Shown here: positions 9,834 to 15,079 of the stretch, in pieces
How positions within the stretch are numbered: position 1 is the stretch's first letter
How the letters are laid out: each line of letters begins with the position of its first letter
NCBI GenBank assembly: GCA_026002995.1
Contig: BPGK01000001.1
Span: forward strand, 868,001 to 932,000
Length of the DNA: 64,000 bases
Source of the DNA: Gaiellaceae bacterium
Lineage (GTDB): Bacteria > Actinomycetota > Thermoleophilia > Gaiellales > Gaiellaceae
Reading direction: 5' to 3'
Program-made: the position numbers and the translations under genes
Notes under the pieces: model-generated
Seen by the model: only the letters and a program-made list of their open reading frames with translations
Told to the model about the DNA's origin: nothing
Databases searched by the model: none

Positions 9834-12806
9834 GTGTTTGCCGCCGCCAAGCATTGGGCACCTGGGCTGCTCGCGCTCGCTGCACTCAGCGTCCTGGCGC
9901 TGTCGACCGCTGCGAGCGGTGCGCCGGTCGGTACCGAGCGATCGAAGCAGTCGACCAAGCGGGACCGAACCCCTCCGACCGCTCCGACGGACCTTCGTGT
10001 AACGGCAACGACACCCTCCTCTGTCGCACTTGCCTGGTCCGCGTCCAAGGACAACGTCGGGGTCGTCGGGTATCGCGTCTCCTACGCGGGAAGGTCTCGT
10101 AGCGTTACGACGACATCGTTCGTGGTCAAGGGCCTCACGTGTGGGCGAAGCGTGTTCGTGTCCATCGTCGGCTTCGATCGCGCAAGGAACGTCTCCGTGC
10201 CTACCGCGACCACCGCATCGACGTCCGCGTGCACCGACGTGACTCCGCCGACATCTCCTACCGGGTTCCGTCAGATCGACACTTTCCAGGACGCCGTCGT
10301 GCTGAGCTGGAGCCCGTCATCCGATGATGTCGGCGTCGTCGGCTACGGCGTCTATCGGAGCGGTGTACTCGTCGCCGAGTCGTCGAGCCCGATCGTCACG
10401 CTTGCGAGGCTCACATGTGACGCGACTTACCGGTACGACATCGATGCGGTCGACGCCGCGGGCAACCGCTCTCGTCCGACGCCCGTCTGGGTGCAGACGT
10501 CGGCGTGTGACGATTGGGGCGACGCTCCGTCCGCTCCGGAAGAGCTGCGGGTGATCGCCCAAGAGCCGAGCTCGGTGACGCTGGCGTGGTCGGCTCCATC
10601 CGACGGTGTCGGGGTTACCGGCTACACGGTCTACATCGACGGTGCGCCCGCGCTGAACTCGAGTCAGCTCTCGGCGATCGTTTCGGGGCTCTCCTGTGGG
10701 ACGACCTACGTGCTCGGTGTCGACGCGTTCGATGCCGCGGGTAGGCGCTCGCCGATCGTGACCGTGAGCTCGTCGACGAGCCCGTGTGTAGCAGACCCCT
10801 CGCCGATTCCTGGGTCTGCGCTCGACTCGTCGCCTCCTTCACCGCCGGGCGAGCTCGCGGTTACGGGTGCCACGGGCTCGACGATCTCGCTCTCCTGGGC
10901 CGCCTCATCGGACGATCGCGGTGTCGCCGGCTACGGGCTCTATGTCCATGGTCGGCGCGTCGCGAGCACCACGGCGCTCACGGCTACGATCTCGGCGCTC
11001 TCCTGCGGCACGTCGTACGTGCTCGGCGTCGATGCGGTCGATGGGGCAGGCAATCGCTCGACCGTGACTCAGCGCTCTGCGTCGACGGCGCGGTGCGAAG
11101 ACACCCAGCCGCCGACGTCTCCCACGAGTCTCGTCGCGACGTCACGAACCTCCGACAGCATTGCGCTCTCATGGTCAGCGTCCAGCGATGATGTCGGCGT
11201 CGTCGGCTACGGGCTCTATCGGAATGGTGTCCTCGTTGGGGCAACCTCCGGGACGAGCGGCATCTTCGTCGGCCTCGCATGCAATACGAGCTACACCTTG
11301 GGGGTCGACGCGTTCGATGCCGCAGGGAACCGCTCGCCACGCGCCGTCATGATGGTCTCGACGTCCAGCTGTCCCGACACATCGCCGCCAAGCGCTCCGA
11401 CGAACCTCGTCGTCGCCTCGATCGGCGAGACGAGTCTCACGCTGATGTGGGGGGCGTCGACGGACGACACCGGTGTGGTTGGCTACGACGTCTATCGTGG
11501 AGAGGCGAGAGTAGCCACCGTCACGACGACGTCGTACCGCCAGGGCGAGCTGTCCTGTGGGACGACGTATACGTTCGGGGTCACGGCCTTCGACGGGGCG
11601 GGCAACCGCTCTCCTCGCGCCCAGATCACGGTCTCGACTCCTACCTGTCCGCCTCCGCCAGTGCCCGCGTCCTCGGGCGCTGCGGTTGCCGTCGCCCCCT
11701 CCGGGAACGATTCGACCTGCGTCCGCGGCGATCTCGCGAAGCCGTGCGCCACCTTCCGCCGCGCGTACGAGATCGCTCACTGCGGAGATCTCGTCCACGT
11801 CGCTGACGGGTCGTACGCGCGCCAGGATCTCCAGGGCCCGGACAAGTCCTGCTCGGGTGGCTACGTCGTCTTCAAGGGGAGTCGCGCAGCGGTAGTGGAC
11901 GAGATCAAGACGGCCGAGTGCTGCGGTCGTGCTGTGAACGGCCCGGACTGGATCGAGCTCAACGGCTTCACGCTCCGCAACCGGCTGAACGGCTGGGGTC
12001 AAGCCGACAACTGGCGCGTCATTGGGATCGACGGGGGTTCCTTCGACATCAACGGTCCGGCCAACTGGCTGCTCTCGGGCAACGACTGGGGGCCATGCAG
12101 CTCGAACACGGCGCCGACCTGCAATGGGCAGAACTTCGCTGGTGGAGTATCCAACCTCGTCATCGACGGAGACACCTTCCACGACTTCACCATCACGCCG
12201 GGATCGGGGGCGCACTGGGAGTGCCTCTTCATCACCGGTGCACGCGGGGCGAACGTCATTCGCAACTCTCGCTTCTGGAACTGCGAGACGTACGGGATCT
12301 ACTTCTCGAGCTTCCACTCCGACCACCGCTACTCGACGGGCTCCTGGACGGTCGAGAACAACTGGTTCGGCCGCACCTGCTGCTTCGGCTCGTCACCCCG
12401 CTCATCTGCGATCAACCTCGGAGGCTCCTCCCCCGGCGAGCCGGTGCAGAACGTTCTCATCCGCTTCAACTCCTTCGCCCCGGGCCAGACGCTCGTGCGC
12501 GAGGGGGGTCCGACGGGCTCGAACCTCCGCGCAGTTGGGAACATCTTCGGAGCGAGCGGGTGTGTGGCGGACGTCTCATACTTCTATAACCTCTTCAGAG
12601 GCGGCACCTGCGGGCAGTCGGGTCTCACGATCTCGGAGATGCCCTATGTCAACGGGTCTGACGGCGCCGCGATGGACTACCACCTCCGCAGTGGCTCGCC
12701 AGCCGAGCGGTATGTGGCACCGACGAGCTCCGACTACGCGCTGGCCATCGACATCGATAGGCAGAGCCGAAGCTCTCCGAGGGACGCAGGCTCCGATCAG
12801 CGCTGA
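9834..12806 (+). CDS. Secreted protein with six FN3 repeats and a parallel beta-helix domain
   Basis: A 990-residue exported protein. A signal sequence (about residues 1-29, ending near TAASGA) precedes six fibronectin type III repeats of about 93 residues (about 46-606), each with DDVGVVGY-like and DAAGNRSP-like motifs. A right-handed beta-helix/pectate-lyase-like domain (about 612-990) follows. Every FN3 unit has one internal Cys (L-S/T-C-G) and ends in a Cys, implying one disulfide per unit. The start is a GTG at 9834. Beta-helix domains of this kind commonly bind or cleave polysaccharides; with its position in an exopolysaccharide locus, a matrix-binding or trimming role is plausible but not shown. 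Residues about 620-907 are encoded by DNA repeated in the next gene. Confidence 0.85.
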   Translation: MFAAAKHWAPGLLALAALSVLALSTAASGAPVGTERSKQSTKRDRTPPTAPTDLRVTATTPSSVALAWSASKDNVGVVGYRVSYAGRSRSVTTTSFVVKGLTCGRSVFVSIVGFDRARNVSVPTATTASTSACTDVTPPTSPTGFRQIDTFQDAVVLSWSPSSDDVGVVGYGVYRSGVLVAESSSPIVTLARLTCDATYRYDIDAVDAAGNRSRPTPVWVQTSACDDWGDAPSAPEELRVIAQEPSSVTLAWSAPSDGVGVTGYTVYIDGAPALNSSQLSAIVSGLSCGTTYVLGVDAFDAAGRRSPIVTVSSSTSPCVADPSPIPGSALDSSPPSPPGELAVTGATGSTISLSWAASSDDRGVAGYGLYVHGRRVASTTALTATISALSCGTSYVLGVDAVDGAGNRSTVTQRSASTARCEDTQPPTSPTSLVATSRTSDSIALSWSASSDDVGVVGYGLYRNGVLVGATSGTSGIFVGLACNTSYTLGVDAFDAAGNRSPRAVMMVSTSSCPDTSPPSAPTNLVVASIGETSLTLMWGASTDDTGVVGYDVYRGEARVATVTTTSYRQGELSCGTTYTFGVTAFDGAGNRSPRAQITVSTPTCPPPPVPASSGAAVAVAPSGNDSTCVRGDLAKPCATFRRAYEIAHCGDLVHVADGSYARQDLQGPDKSCSGGYVVFKGSRAAVVDEIKTAECCGRAVNGPDWIELNGFTLRNRLNGWGQADNWRVIGIDGGSFDINGPANWLLSGNDWGPCSSNTAPTCNGQNFAGGVSNLVIDGDTFHDFTITPGSGAHWECLFITGARGANVIRNSRFWNCETYGIYFSSFHSDHRYSTGSWTVENNWFGRTCCFGSSPRSSAINLGGSSPGEPVQNVLIRFNSFAPGQTLVREGGPTGSNLRAVGNIFGASGCVADVSYFYNLFRGGTCGQSGLTISEMPYVNGSDGAAMDYHLRSGSPAERYVAPTSSDYALAIDIDRQSRSSPRDAGSDQR
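11690..12556 (+). repeat. 867-bp direct repeat, copy 1 (beta-helix core)
   Basis: Coding repeat in the six-FN3 protein. As far as I can read, the sequence is identical base for base to 13063-13929, at an offset of 1,373 bp and in the same reading phase. The flanks diverge abruptly on both sides at the nucleotide level, although the protein just past the 3' boundary remains recognisably similar. Confidence 0.95.
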
Positions 12807-12925: not shown

Positions 12926-14308
12926 GTGATCGAGGTCTCACTGTCGAAGCCGCGATCGAGAGCCCTGGTAGCGTTGCTCGTCTTGAGCGGAATCGTGCTC
13001 GGAGGCGAGCGGATCACCTCTCTTGCCGCCAGTGGACAAGCATCTGCGACACCACGAGTCCGCGTCGCCCCCTCCGGGAACGATTCGACCTGCGTCCGCG
13101 GCGATCTCGCGAAGCCGTGCGCCACCTTCCGCCGCGCGTACGAGATCGCTCACTGCGGAGATCTCGTCCACGTCGCTGACGGGTCGTACGCGCGCCAGGA
13201 TCTCCAGGGCCCGGACAAGTCCTGCTCGGGTGGCTACGTCGTCTTCAAGGGGAGTCGCGCAGCGGTAGTGGACGAGATCAAGACGGCCGAGTGCTGCGGT
13301 CGTGCTGTGAACGGCCCGGACTGGATCGAGCTCAACGGCTTCACGCTCCGCAACCGGCTGAACGGCTGGGGTCAAGCCGACAACTGGCGCGTCATTGGGA
13401 TCGACGGGGGTTCCTTCGACATCAACGGTCCGGCCAACTGGCTGCTCTCGGGCAACGACTGGGGGCCATGCAGCTCGAACACGGCGCCGACCTGCAATGG
13501 GCAGAACTTCGCTGGTGGAGTATCCAACCTCGTCATCGACGGAGACACCTTCCACGACTTCACCATCACGCCGGGATCGGGGGCGCACTGGGAGTGCCTC
13601 TTCATCACCGGTGCACGCGGGGCGAACGTCATTCGCAACTCTCGCTTCTGGAACTGCGAGACGTACGGGATCTACTTCTCGAGCTTCCACTCCGACCACC
13701 GCTACTCGACGGGCTCCTGGACGGTCGAGAACAACTGGTTCGGCCGCACCTGCTGCTTCGGCTCGTCACCCCGCTCATCTGCGATCAACCTCGGAGGCTC
13801 CTCCCCCGGCGAGCCGGTGCAGAACGTTCTCATCCGCTTCAACTCCTTCGCCCCGGGCCAGACGCTCGTGCGCGAGGGGGGTCCGACGGGCTCGAACCTC
13901 CGCGCAGTTGGGAACATCTTCGGAGCGAGGTCATGTACCACGGATGTGGCGTACTCCCGGAATCTGTATCCGGCGGGACGCTGTAGCTCCGAGGATCGAC
14001 TCGGCCCGCCATACGGCTACCGGCTCGTCGACGATCGGCTCGTCTTCGACGGTCGGCGCGCACAGGCCGTGAGGCGAGCCTTCCACCTCGCCGCGTTGCA
14101 TCGGGAACCACCGTTCGCTGTCGCTCGGGCTCTCCGGAGAGCCCGCCTTCCTCGTCCGCCGGGGGGATGGACGGCCGCCGGAGTCTCCGTCTTGCTCGGG
14201 AATCGAGACTACCTCGGGCGATCAATCGGACGGCAGGCCGCTCACCCGCCGCTCGTGTCGAGGCGCGAGTTCAATCGCGCTCAGCGGAGCCTGCGCTCAG
14301 CGCGATGA
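12926..14308 (+). CDS. Secreted beta-helix protein with a C-terminal serine-recombinase-like domain
   Basis: A 460-residue protein starting at a GTG (MIEVSLSKPRSR), with a signal sequence or anchor at about residues 12-35. Residues about 47-334 are the same beta-helix core as in the preceding protein, encoded by apparently identical DNA. After a short diverged tail (SCTTDVAYSRNLYPAGRC, the counterpart of CVADVSYFYNLFRGGTC upstream), the last 100 residues match the 'Recombinase' domain of large serine integrases: PPYGYRLVDDRLVFD, an AVRRAFHLAA helix, RLPRPPGGWTAAGVSVLLGN, DYLGR, then HPPLVSRREFNRAQ. There is no serine-recombinase catalytic domain. A DNA-binding-type domain on an exported protein is odd; it may be a chance fusion, a repurposed fold or a gene relic. 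Confidence 0.75.
   Translation: MIEVSLSKPRSRALVALLVLSGIVLGGERITSLAASGQASATPRVRVAPSGNDSTCVRGDLAKPCATFRRAYEIAHCGDLVHVADGSYARQDLQGPDKSCSGGYVVFKGSRAAVVDEIKTAECCGRAVNGPDWIELNGFTLRNRLNGWGQADNWRVIGIDGGSFDINGPANWLLSGNDWGPCSSNTAPTCNGQNFAGGVSNLVIDGDTFHDFTITPGSGAHWECLFITGARGANVIRNSRFWNCETYGIYFSSFHSDHRYSTGSWTVENNWFGRTCCFGSSPRSSAINLGGSSPGEPVQNVLIRFNSFAPGQTLVREGGPTGSNLRAVGNIFGARSCTTDVAYSRNLYPAGRCSSEDRLGPPYGYRLVDDRLVFDGRRAQAVRRAFHLAALHREPPFAVARALRRARLPRPPGGWTAAGVSVLLGNRDYLGRSIGRQAAHPPLVSRREFNRAQRSLRSAR
13063..13929 (+). repeat. 867-bp direct repeat, copy 2 (beta-helix core)
   Basis: Second copy of the 11690-12556 segment, in frame in the following gene. The match breaks at the codon after the shared GAGCGAG end, where the two genes continue with related but diverged tails. 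Confidence 0.95.
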
Positions 14309-15079
14309 GGGCTCCTGGAACCACTCGAAGCGTCGGTTCATCGGGCGCACGAGGGGGATCCGCAGTAAGAGCCGCTTGAGAGCCATCTTCTGCTTTTGAC
14401 GACGTTCGTAGCGTCGCCAGAACTCTCGTTTCTCTGGAGGCTCGGGACCGCTTGGGCTCTGATGGAGCACGTGGAGGTCGGCCAGGACTGCGCTCTCGAG
14501 TCCGATCCGCTCGAGAGCCCTGATGTACTCCCACTCCTCCTGCCAGAAGACGCGCCCCGGACGCTCCGGGAAGCCGCCCACACGGTCAGCGACGTCTCTC
14601 GAGGTCATCGCGCACCCTCCGCCCGCGGGTCCCGAGAGGAGGCGGATGCCGTTGATCTCGTAGGGGTGGTACTCGTGTGGGCGCACCTCGTGGCGCACGC
14701 GTGACGCTTGGTCGTGGGGATTGGGGGCGAGATCGGCCGCGAGGAAACCCACTTCCGGGAGCTTTCGGTATGCCTCGTAGAGGACTCTGTCCCAGTGCCA
14801 GGGTGCCGCAACGACGTCATCATCGAGCTCGATCATGTACGGGGCCTTCGTTTGGCGAAAGGCTCGCGCGTACCCGTTCATGCCGACGTTCGTCGAGGAG
14901 CGGATGCAGCGGAAACGAGGATCGGGCAGGCTCTCCACATACGCGGCTGTTCCGTCTCGGGAGCCGTTGTCCCAGATCACGATCTCGGTCGTGAGGTTCG
15001 ACGTTCGCAGGAGGACATCCTCCACGCACCTGCGGAGCGTTGGGAGTCGGTTATGAGTGATGACGACGATCGCGATCAC
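14297..15079 (-). CDS. Glycosyltransferase family 2
   Basis: A 260-residue GT-A glycosyltransferase. It starts MIAIVVITHNRLPTL and shows EIVIWDNGSRDGT and the metal-binding LDDDVV (about residues 85-90), then GGCAMTSRDVADRVGG, the usual acceptor-loop region. It is last in a four-gene minus-strand operon (17431 to 14297), overlapping the upstream GT2 gene by 4 bp, and is convergent with the beta-helix/recombinase gene (12-bp overlap). It probably adds one sugar of the repeat unit. The basic C-terminal tail may associate with the membrane. Confidence 0.85.
   Translation of the reverse strand: MIAIVVITHNRLPTLRRCVEDVLLRTSNLTTEIVIWDNGSRDGTAAYVESLPDPRFRCIRSSTNVGMNGYARAFRQTKAPYMIELDDDVVAAPWHWDRVLYEAYRKLPEVGFLAADLAPNPHDQASRVRHEVRPHEYHPYEINGIRLLSGPAGGGCAMTSRDVADRVGGFPERPGRVFWQEEWEYIRALERIGLESAVLADLHVLHQSPSGPEPPEKREFWRRYERRQKQKMALKRLLLRIPLVRPMNRRFEWFQEPSSR

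Follow-up and report, generated by a model that had tools for sequence, protein, structure and literature searches.

A serine integrase-type recombinase domain as the C-terminal tail of a putatively exported beta-helix protein in a Gaiellaceae bacterium

How a DNA-binding domain typical of large serine integrases came to stand at the end of an apparently exported protein, and what it may do there, is the question raised by a gene of a Gaiellaceae bacterium (GCA_026002995.1, contig BPGK01000001.1, positions 868,001 to 932,000; the window hereafter denotes this whole stretch of 64,000 nucleotides, to which all positions refer). The gene was read as one uninterrupted frame without a stop on the plus strand, encoding 460 residues. 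A beta-helix, a putative signal sequence suggested by hydropathy and a recombinase domain (RD) tail were recovered on the same protein, in agreement with the first-pass annotation. That annotation had allowed that a frameshift might assign the tail to a separate gene; both a frameshift product and a separate gene were ruled out, as the tail lies in the same single open frame. The domain had been marked from 13930 onward, which is the first base past an 867-bp repeat; the segment 13930-14005 still encodes the end of the beta-helix, and the RD starts at about 14006 with PPYGY. The frame ends 3 residues past the Pfam PF07508 match. The parts of the gene are as follows.

12926..14308, plus strand: open reading frame of 460 aa with putative signal, beta-helix and C-terminal RD (from the ORF list, single frame)
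12926..13048, plus strand: putative N-terminal signal sequence, residues 1-41 with hydrophobic core 14-25 (from hydropathy; cleavage site inferred)
13055..13984, plus strand: right-handed beta-helix, residues about 44-353, ending in the closing motif C337...C353
13979..13999, plus strand: junction RCSSEDR, residues 352-358, which precedes the C-cap in paralogues (compared with L086, L042, L043 and L064)
14006..14296, plus strand: RD (PF07508), residues 361-457

The motifs from which an integrase-type Recombinase domain had been recognized were found in place in the tail, namely PPYGY (residues 361-365), VRRAF (382-386), PPGGWTAAGV (ending at 420), DYLG (about 428-431) and HPPLVSRREFNRAQ (440-453). 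In the PF07508 profile search that had been proposed as a check, the match lay above the Pfam gathering cut-off of 21.1 bits both for the full protein (24.3 bits, E = 3.8e-5, residues 379-457) and for the tail alone (28.3 bits, E = 2.2e-6), and the tail was the sole match when the whole genome was searched (28.1 bits, E = 5e-6). PHROG_95 'integrase' matched residues 361-457 (E = 5.9e-11; 3.1e-12 for the tail alone), and hhalign of a two-tail profile, built from this tail and from the second one described below, against a profile of 12 integrase RDs gave a probability of 99.6% (E = 1e-23). The NCBIfam search returned no match, and when PDB sequences were searched with the profile of the tail, only a weak match to the SPbeta integrase appeared (E = 0.012). 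Because the Pfam, PHROG and profile-profile matches agree, the RD identification is real and well beyond chance, and the comparisons indicate that the tail is homologous to integrase RDs.

Structural modelling, also proposed earlier, led to the same domain. The tail model, based on an alignment of 36 RD sequences, reached pLDDT 91.7 and pTM 0.84, and its best structural match was the SPbeta integrase (9y66_C, Z 13.3 over 107 residues, rmsd 2.9), followed by Bxb1 (Z 11.2), LI (10.2) and phiC31 (10.1); integrase RDs overall matched with Z of 7-13 and unrelated proteins with Z below 5. Since the alignment for the tail model contained integrases, a full-length model was built from an integrase-free alignment, and the same strand and helix order was predicted in the tail at lower confidence. 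The tail is thereby predicted to have the RD fold.

The remaining parts of an integrase were not detected. The serine catalytic domain (PF00239), already noted as missing from the protein, was found neither there nor in the genome (2.62 Mb, one contig). Pfam detected no zinc ribbon in the 460-aa protein, and downstream of the tail no integrase or zinc-ribbon remnant was found; the tail is thus without serine catalytic domain, alpha-E helix, zinc ribbon and coiled coil. As there is no catalytic domain, alpha-E, zinc ribbon or partner resolvase in the genome, the RD probably plays no part in recombination.

The rest of the protein has the character of a putatively secreted beta-helix. Residues 14-25, which follow KPRSR, have a mean Kyte-Doolittle value of 3.06 and fit a signal peptide as judged by hydropathy only, and 12 cysteines lie in the beta-helix; hydropathy and Cys content together suggest that the protein is exported. 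The PF13229 score of the 460-aa protein (18.7 bits) is below the cut-off of 25.9, and the fold is also backed by homology to paralogues and by an AlphaFold model in which strands are predicted at 43-344 in a beta-helix pattern. The Foldseek matches of this part were polysaccharide lyases with low TM-scores; PL6 and rhamnogalacturonan lyase are polysaccharide lyases whose folds are near the PF13229-like beta-helix, and an enzyme activity of the modelled beta-helix part is possible. H210, D211, H221 and E268-N270 (13553-13558, 13586-13588 and 13727-13735) are conserved, or almost so, throughout the beta-helix family and possibly form an active or metal site. Were the protein instead to stay in the cell, its RD could bind DNA there, for example in a regulatory role or by inhibiting integrase attachment, in keeping with the DNA-binding function of RDs in integrases (PMC3783163). 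This is very improbable in view of the N-terminal hydrophobic segment typical of export, the cysteines, the adjoining paralogue with a signal-like N-terminus, the extracellular kind of fold that the beta-helix represents and a genome without an integrase to inhibit.

The position of the RD was compared with the C-terminal ends of the paralogues. Their beta-helix is closed off by a C...C motif; the cap comes next, often with DR or DRxA in between. The ordinary cap (...D.DG..R....DAGADE) is absent from the RD-tailed protein and the RD stands in its place, so that, as far as the aligned sequences tell, the cap is replaced by the RD at the domain boundary, at a canonical junction. In the paralogue L045 (G111:C101), a different C-terminal module is found where the ordinary cap would stand.

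The gene is surrounded by genes for glycosyltransferases, an O-antigen ligase-like protein, a flippase-like protein and a sugar transferase, i.e. a polysaccharide region, and its immediate setting includes the following.

9834..12806, plus strand: paralogous exported protein of 990 aa with six FN3 domains (Pfam fn3, 161 bits) and a beta-helix with ordinary C-cap (...DAGSDQR)
11690..12556, plus strand: 867-bp repeat, copy in the upstream FN3 paralogue
13063..13929, plus strand: 867-bp repeat, copy in the RD-tailed gene, 100% identical (exact-repeat extension, blastn)
14297..15079, minus strand: convergent family-2 glycosyltransferase gene, sharing 12 bases with the tail end

The upstream paralogue has a signal-like N-terminus. 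The exact direct repeat spans the beta-helix core of the two adjacent genes, and both of its flanks differ. The identity shows a recent gene conversion between the two genes, in either direction. Recombination in cis by the RD-tailed protein, for instance driving the 867-bp exchange, was ruled out by the lack of a catalytic domain and of any PF00239 match in the genome.

The search for beta-helix proteins ending in an RD in other genomes, suggested by the first-pass annotation, yielded one, G035:C48 (JACDAN010000007.1), from an independent actinomycetote MAG of another genus. The two RD-tailed proteins align over their full length (28% identity, E = 8e-26), and the second also matched PF07508 above 21.1 bits (24.5 bits; 29.0 for its tail alone). 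Its surroundings are likewise of polysaccharide type, with genes labelled, from reading the sequence, as encoding a membrane protein, methyltransferase-like and epimerase-like proteins and a beta-helix paralogue with an ordinary cap. In the first ~150 bases of its gene (L029/L067), the signal-like segment is in another frame, through sequencing error or decay.

Searches of 61 relatives and of the family (103 genomes), order (129), class (399) and phylum (396) gave this one further fusion among the matches listed. Within the family, it is the only genome besides the source to carry one, consistent with the earlier remark that such a fusion is unexpected, and no additional RD-tailed protein was found among the matches listed for the phylum-wide sample of 396 genomes. 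As the number of candidates scored per genome was limited in the larger searches, weak or distant fusions may have escaped them. When 92 RD frames were examined, 71 had a catalytic domain, and among the others a beta-helix occurred in the two fusions only, the remainder being mainly Firmicutes RD proteins, truncated frames and diverged integrases. A contig scan again recovered the G035 record; its other matches were integrases or Firmicutes RD proteins lacking the catalytic domain. Viral contigs contained integrases and RD-only frames, none with a beta-helix, and plasmids and phages gave no match to the tail (tblastn, 1e-5). Several RD proteins of ~290 aa from Firmicutes and viral contigs (L069, L070, L080, L155 and L156) have no catalytic domain and lie near full-length serine recombinase frames. 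Nothing on exported RDs was found in the literature searched. The known RD-tailed beta-helix proteins are thus two examples, and the fusion is rare.

The second genome also bears on whether unrelated pieces could have been joined during metagenome assembly. An exact 867-bp repeat is a place where assemblers err; against this, the same architecture is present in a second genus, in an independent MAG, and the RD junction lies ~77 bases past the repeat, the intervening bases still encoding beta-helix. An assembly chimera is therefore the least credible of the explanations weighed here.

Whether the two tails share one origin was assessed from their similarity. With a joint profile, they scored 233 and 205 bits in the 399 class genomes, the next among the matches listed being a true integrase at 49 bits; high scores are expected for both tails because they are inside that profile. 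As a single query, the source tail matched the G035 tail best (52 bits) and the best integrase at 45 bits. The two tails grouped together in the tree with support of 81/64 and long branches, and the beta-helix cores of the two proteins were not sisters, which is attributed to the 867-bp conversion. These comparisons lend weak support to a common origin for both tails. Two independent fusions from two integrases, with the beta-helix C-terminus as a frequent site of module exchange, form a tentative alternative of some weight, to which the limited tail grouping on long branches, the non-sister cores and the different module that replaces the cap in L045 all lend support. Nevertheless, no integrase found is as good a match to the tails as they are to each other, and the conversion overwrites the core phylogeny. 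This alternative concerns origin and is compatible with any role. The earlier idea of cassette-like exchange is supported in part: the core has undergone recent gene conversion, the tails beyond it differ and the cores are not sisters, whereas swapping of the tails themselves was not observed. Nothing was found to show that the tail is hypervariable, as had also been proposed.

The conservation of the two tails was analyzed over 99 aligned codons. Differences amounted to 0.42, 0.43 and 0.70 at codon positions 1, 2 and 3, compared with 0.69, 0.73 and 0.69 for random pairing. Position 3 is saturated and positions 1 and 2 are not, indicating protein-level selection for at least part of the tail's history; part of that constrained history may predate the fusion, inside the integrase, if the fusions are separate. 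These data weigh on the proposal that the tail is a relic, an integrase fragment joined to the beta-helix gene and drifting without function. PF07508 integrases occur within the same genus, so that donors exist, few genomes have the fusion and the frame of the second copy is broken close to the N-terminus, all of which would suit a relic. However, the protein-level constraint between the tails, the predicted high-confidence fold, the in-frame position at the domain boundary in both proteins and the lack of any integrase remnant past the RD are at odds with it. Two divergent genomes have retained both the RD consensus and the predicted fold, which makes drift unlikely. Among the three proposals of the first-pass annotation, reuse of the domain outside the cell is the best supported, as the fusion recurs in a second genus and shows protein-level selection; the function itself is inferred.

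The tails are also strongly basic, with pI values of 11.6 and 11.85-11.9 compared with a median of 9.5 and a 90th percentile of 10.9 for integrase RDs. The gene product would be an extracellular or cell-surface beta-helix protein of a polysaccharide-biosynthesis region, in which an RD captured from a large serine integrase replaced the usual C-terminal cap and was kept as a folded, strongly basic extracellular tail. Its basic surface would bind DNA or another polyanion non-specifically, extracellular DNA and acidic polysaccharide being examples, and the beta-helix domain would thereby be retained on the envelope or within the matrix. To this explanation as a whole, in which the captured RD persists as a folded basic tail that binds polyanions outside the cell, we give about an even chance. 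In the LI integrase, only 3 bp are contacted directly by the RD in the major groove, and it acts jointly with the zinc ribbon, alpha-E and a linker that lies in the minor groove (PMC3783163). Because alpha-E and the zinc ribbon are missing here, the RD alone may bind DNA weakly or not at all. Because the partners of an LI-type RD are absent and the tails are very basic, non-specific DNA or polyanion binding outside the cell is the likeliest role of the tail as judged from charge and ancestry, at somewhat less than an even chance.

The main rival to polyanion binding is a purely structural role, in which the RD serves as a C-cap, closing off the beta-helix instead of the ordinary cap, or as an oligomerisation module, without binding nucleic acid or any polyanion. 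The RD stands exactly at the start of the ordinary cap, after the RC..xDR motif, the ordinary cap is the very part that is missing, and the loop between Y.G and H is shorter in both tails than in many integrase RDs. Yet the tails exceed integrase RDs in basicity rather than falling below them, and they keep the RD consensus, helix-turn-helix region included, which is more than a cap requires; a purely structural tail is accordingly rated as rather unlikely, at about one chance in four. Extracellular polyanion binding is thus retained as the preferred role. The fuller evolutionary scenario, in which an integrase DNA-binding domain was exapted as an extracellular polyanion or DNA module at a swappable C-terminal site, with cores exchanged by gene conversion, is put forward as a speculative possibility.

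Integrase RDs are known as the DNA-binding parts of enzymes acting on chromosomes. If the proposed role is true, an RD can leave mobile elements and be put to use outside the cell, here in two genera. A PF07508 match need not denote a recombinase, and in the source genome the only one does not.

As far as can be judged from the genome, profile and literature searches described above, the domain combination is new and is built from two known kinds. The tail is homologous over the whole domain to the RDs of large serine integrases (SPbeta YokA, Bxb1, LI/A118 and phiC31), from the PPYGY start to the HPPLV...F..AQ end, but it has no catalytic domain, alpha-E, zinc ribbon or coiled coil, is more basic and is fused to an apparently exported beta-helix. 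With the exported PF13229-like beta-helix proteins of the actinobacterial class, the protein shares core residues, the Cys-closed end, the signal-like N-terminus and the polysaccharide-gene neighborhood, whereas most members seen end in the ...DAGADE cap rather than in an RD. The plant ALOG domains (PMC3537659) are a similar case, in which a host protein has taken over the DNA-binding domain of a recombinase but not its catalytic domain; they differ in deriving from tyrosine-recombinase-type elements and in belonging to developmental regulators, whereas a serine-integrase RD is carried here by an apparently exported protein. In its proposed role, DNA binding outside the cell, the tail would resemble the extracellular DNA-binding proteins of biofilm matrices (PMC6593408), the resemblance being one of functional analogy only.
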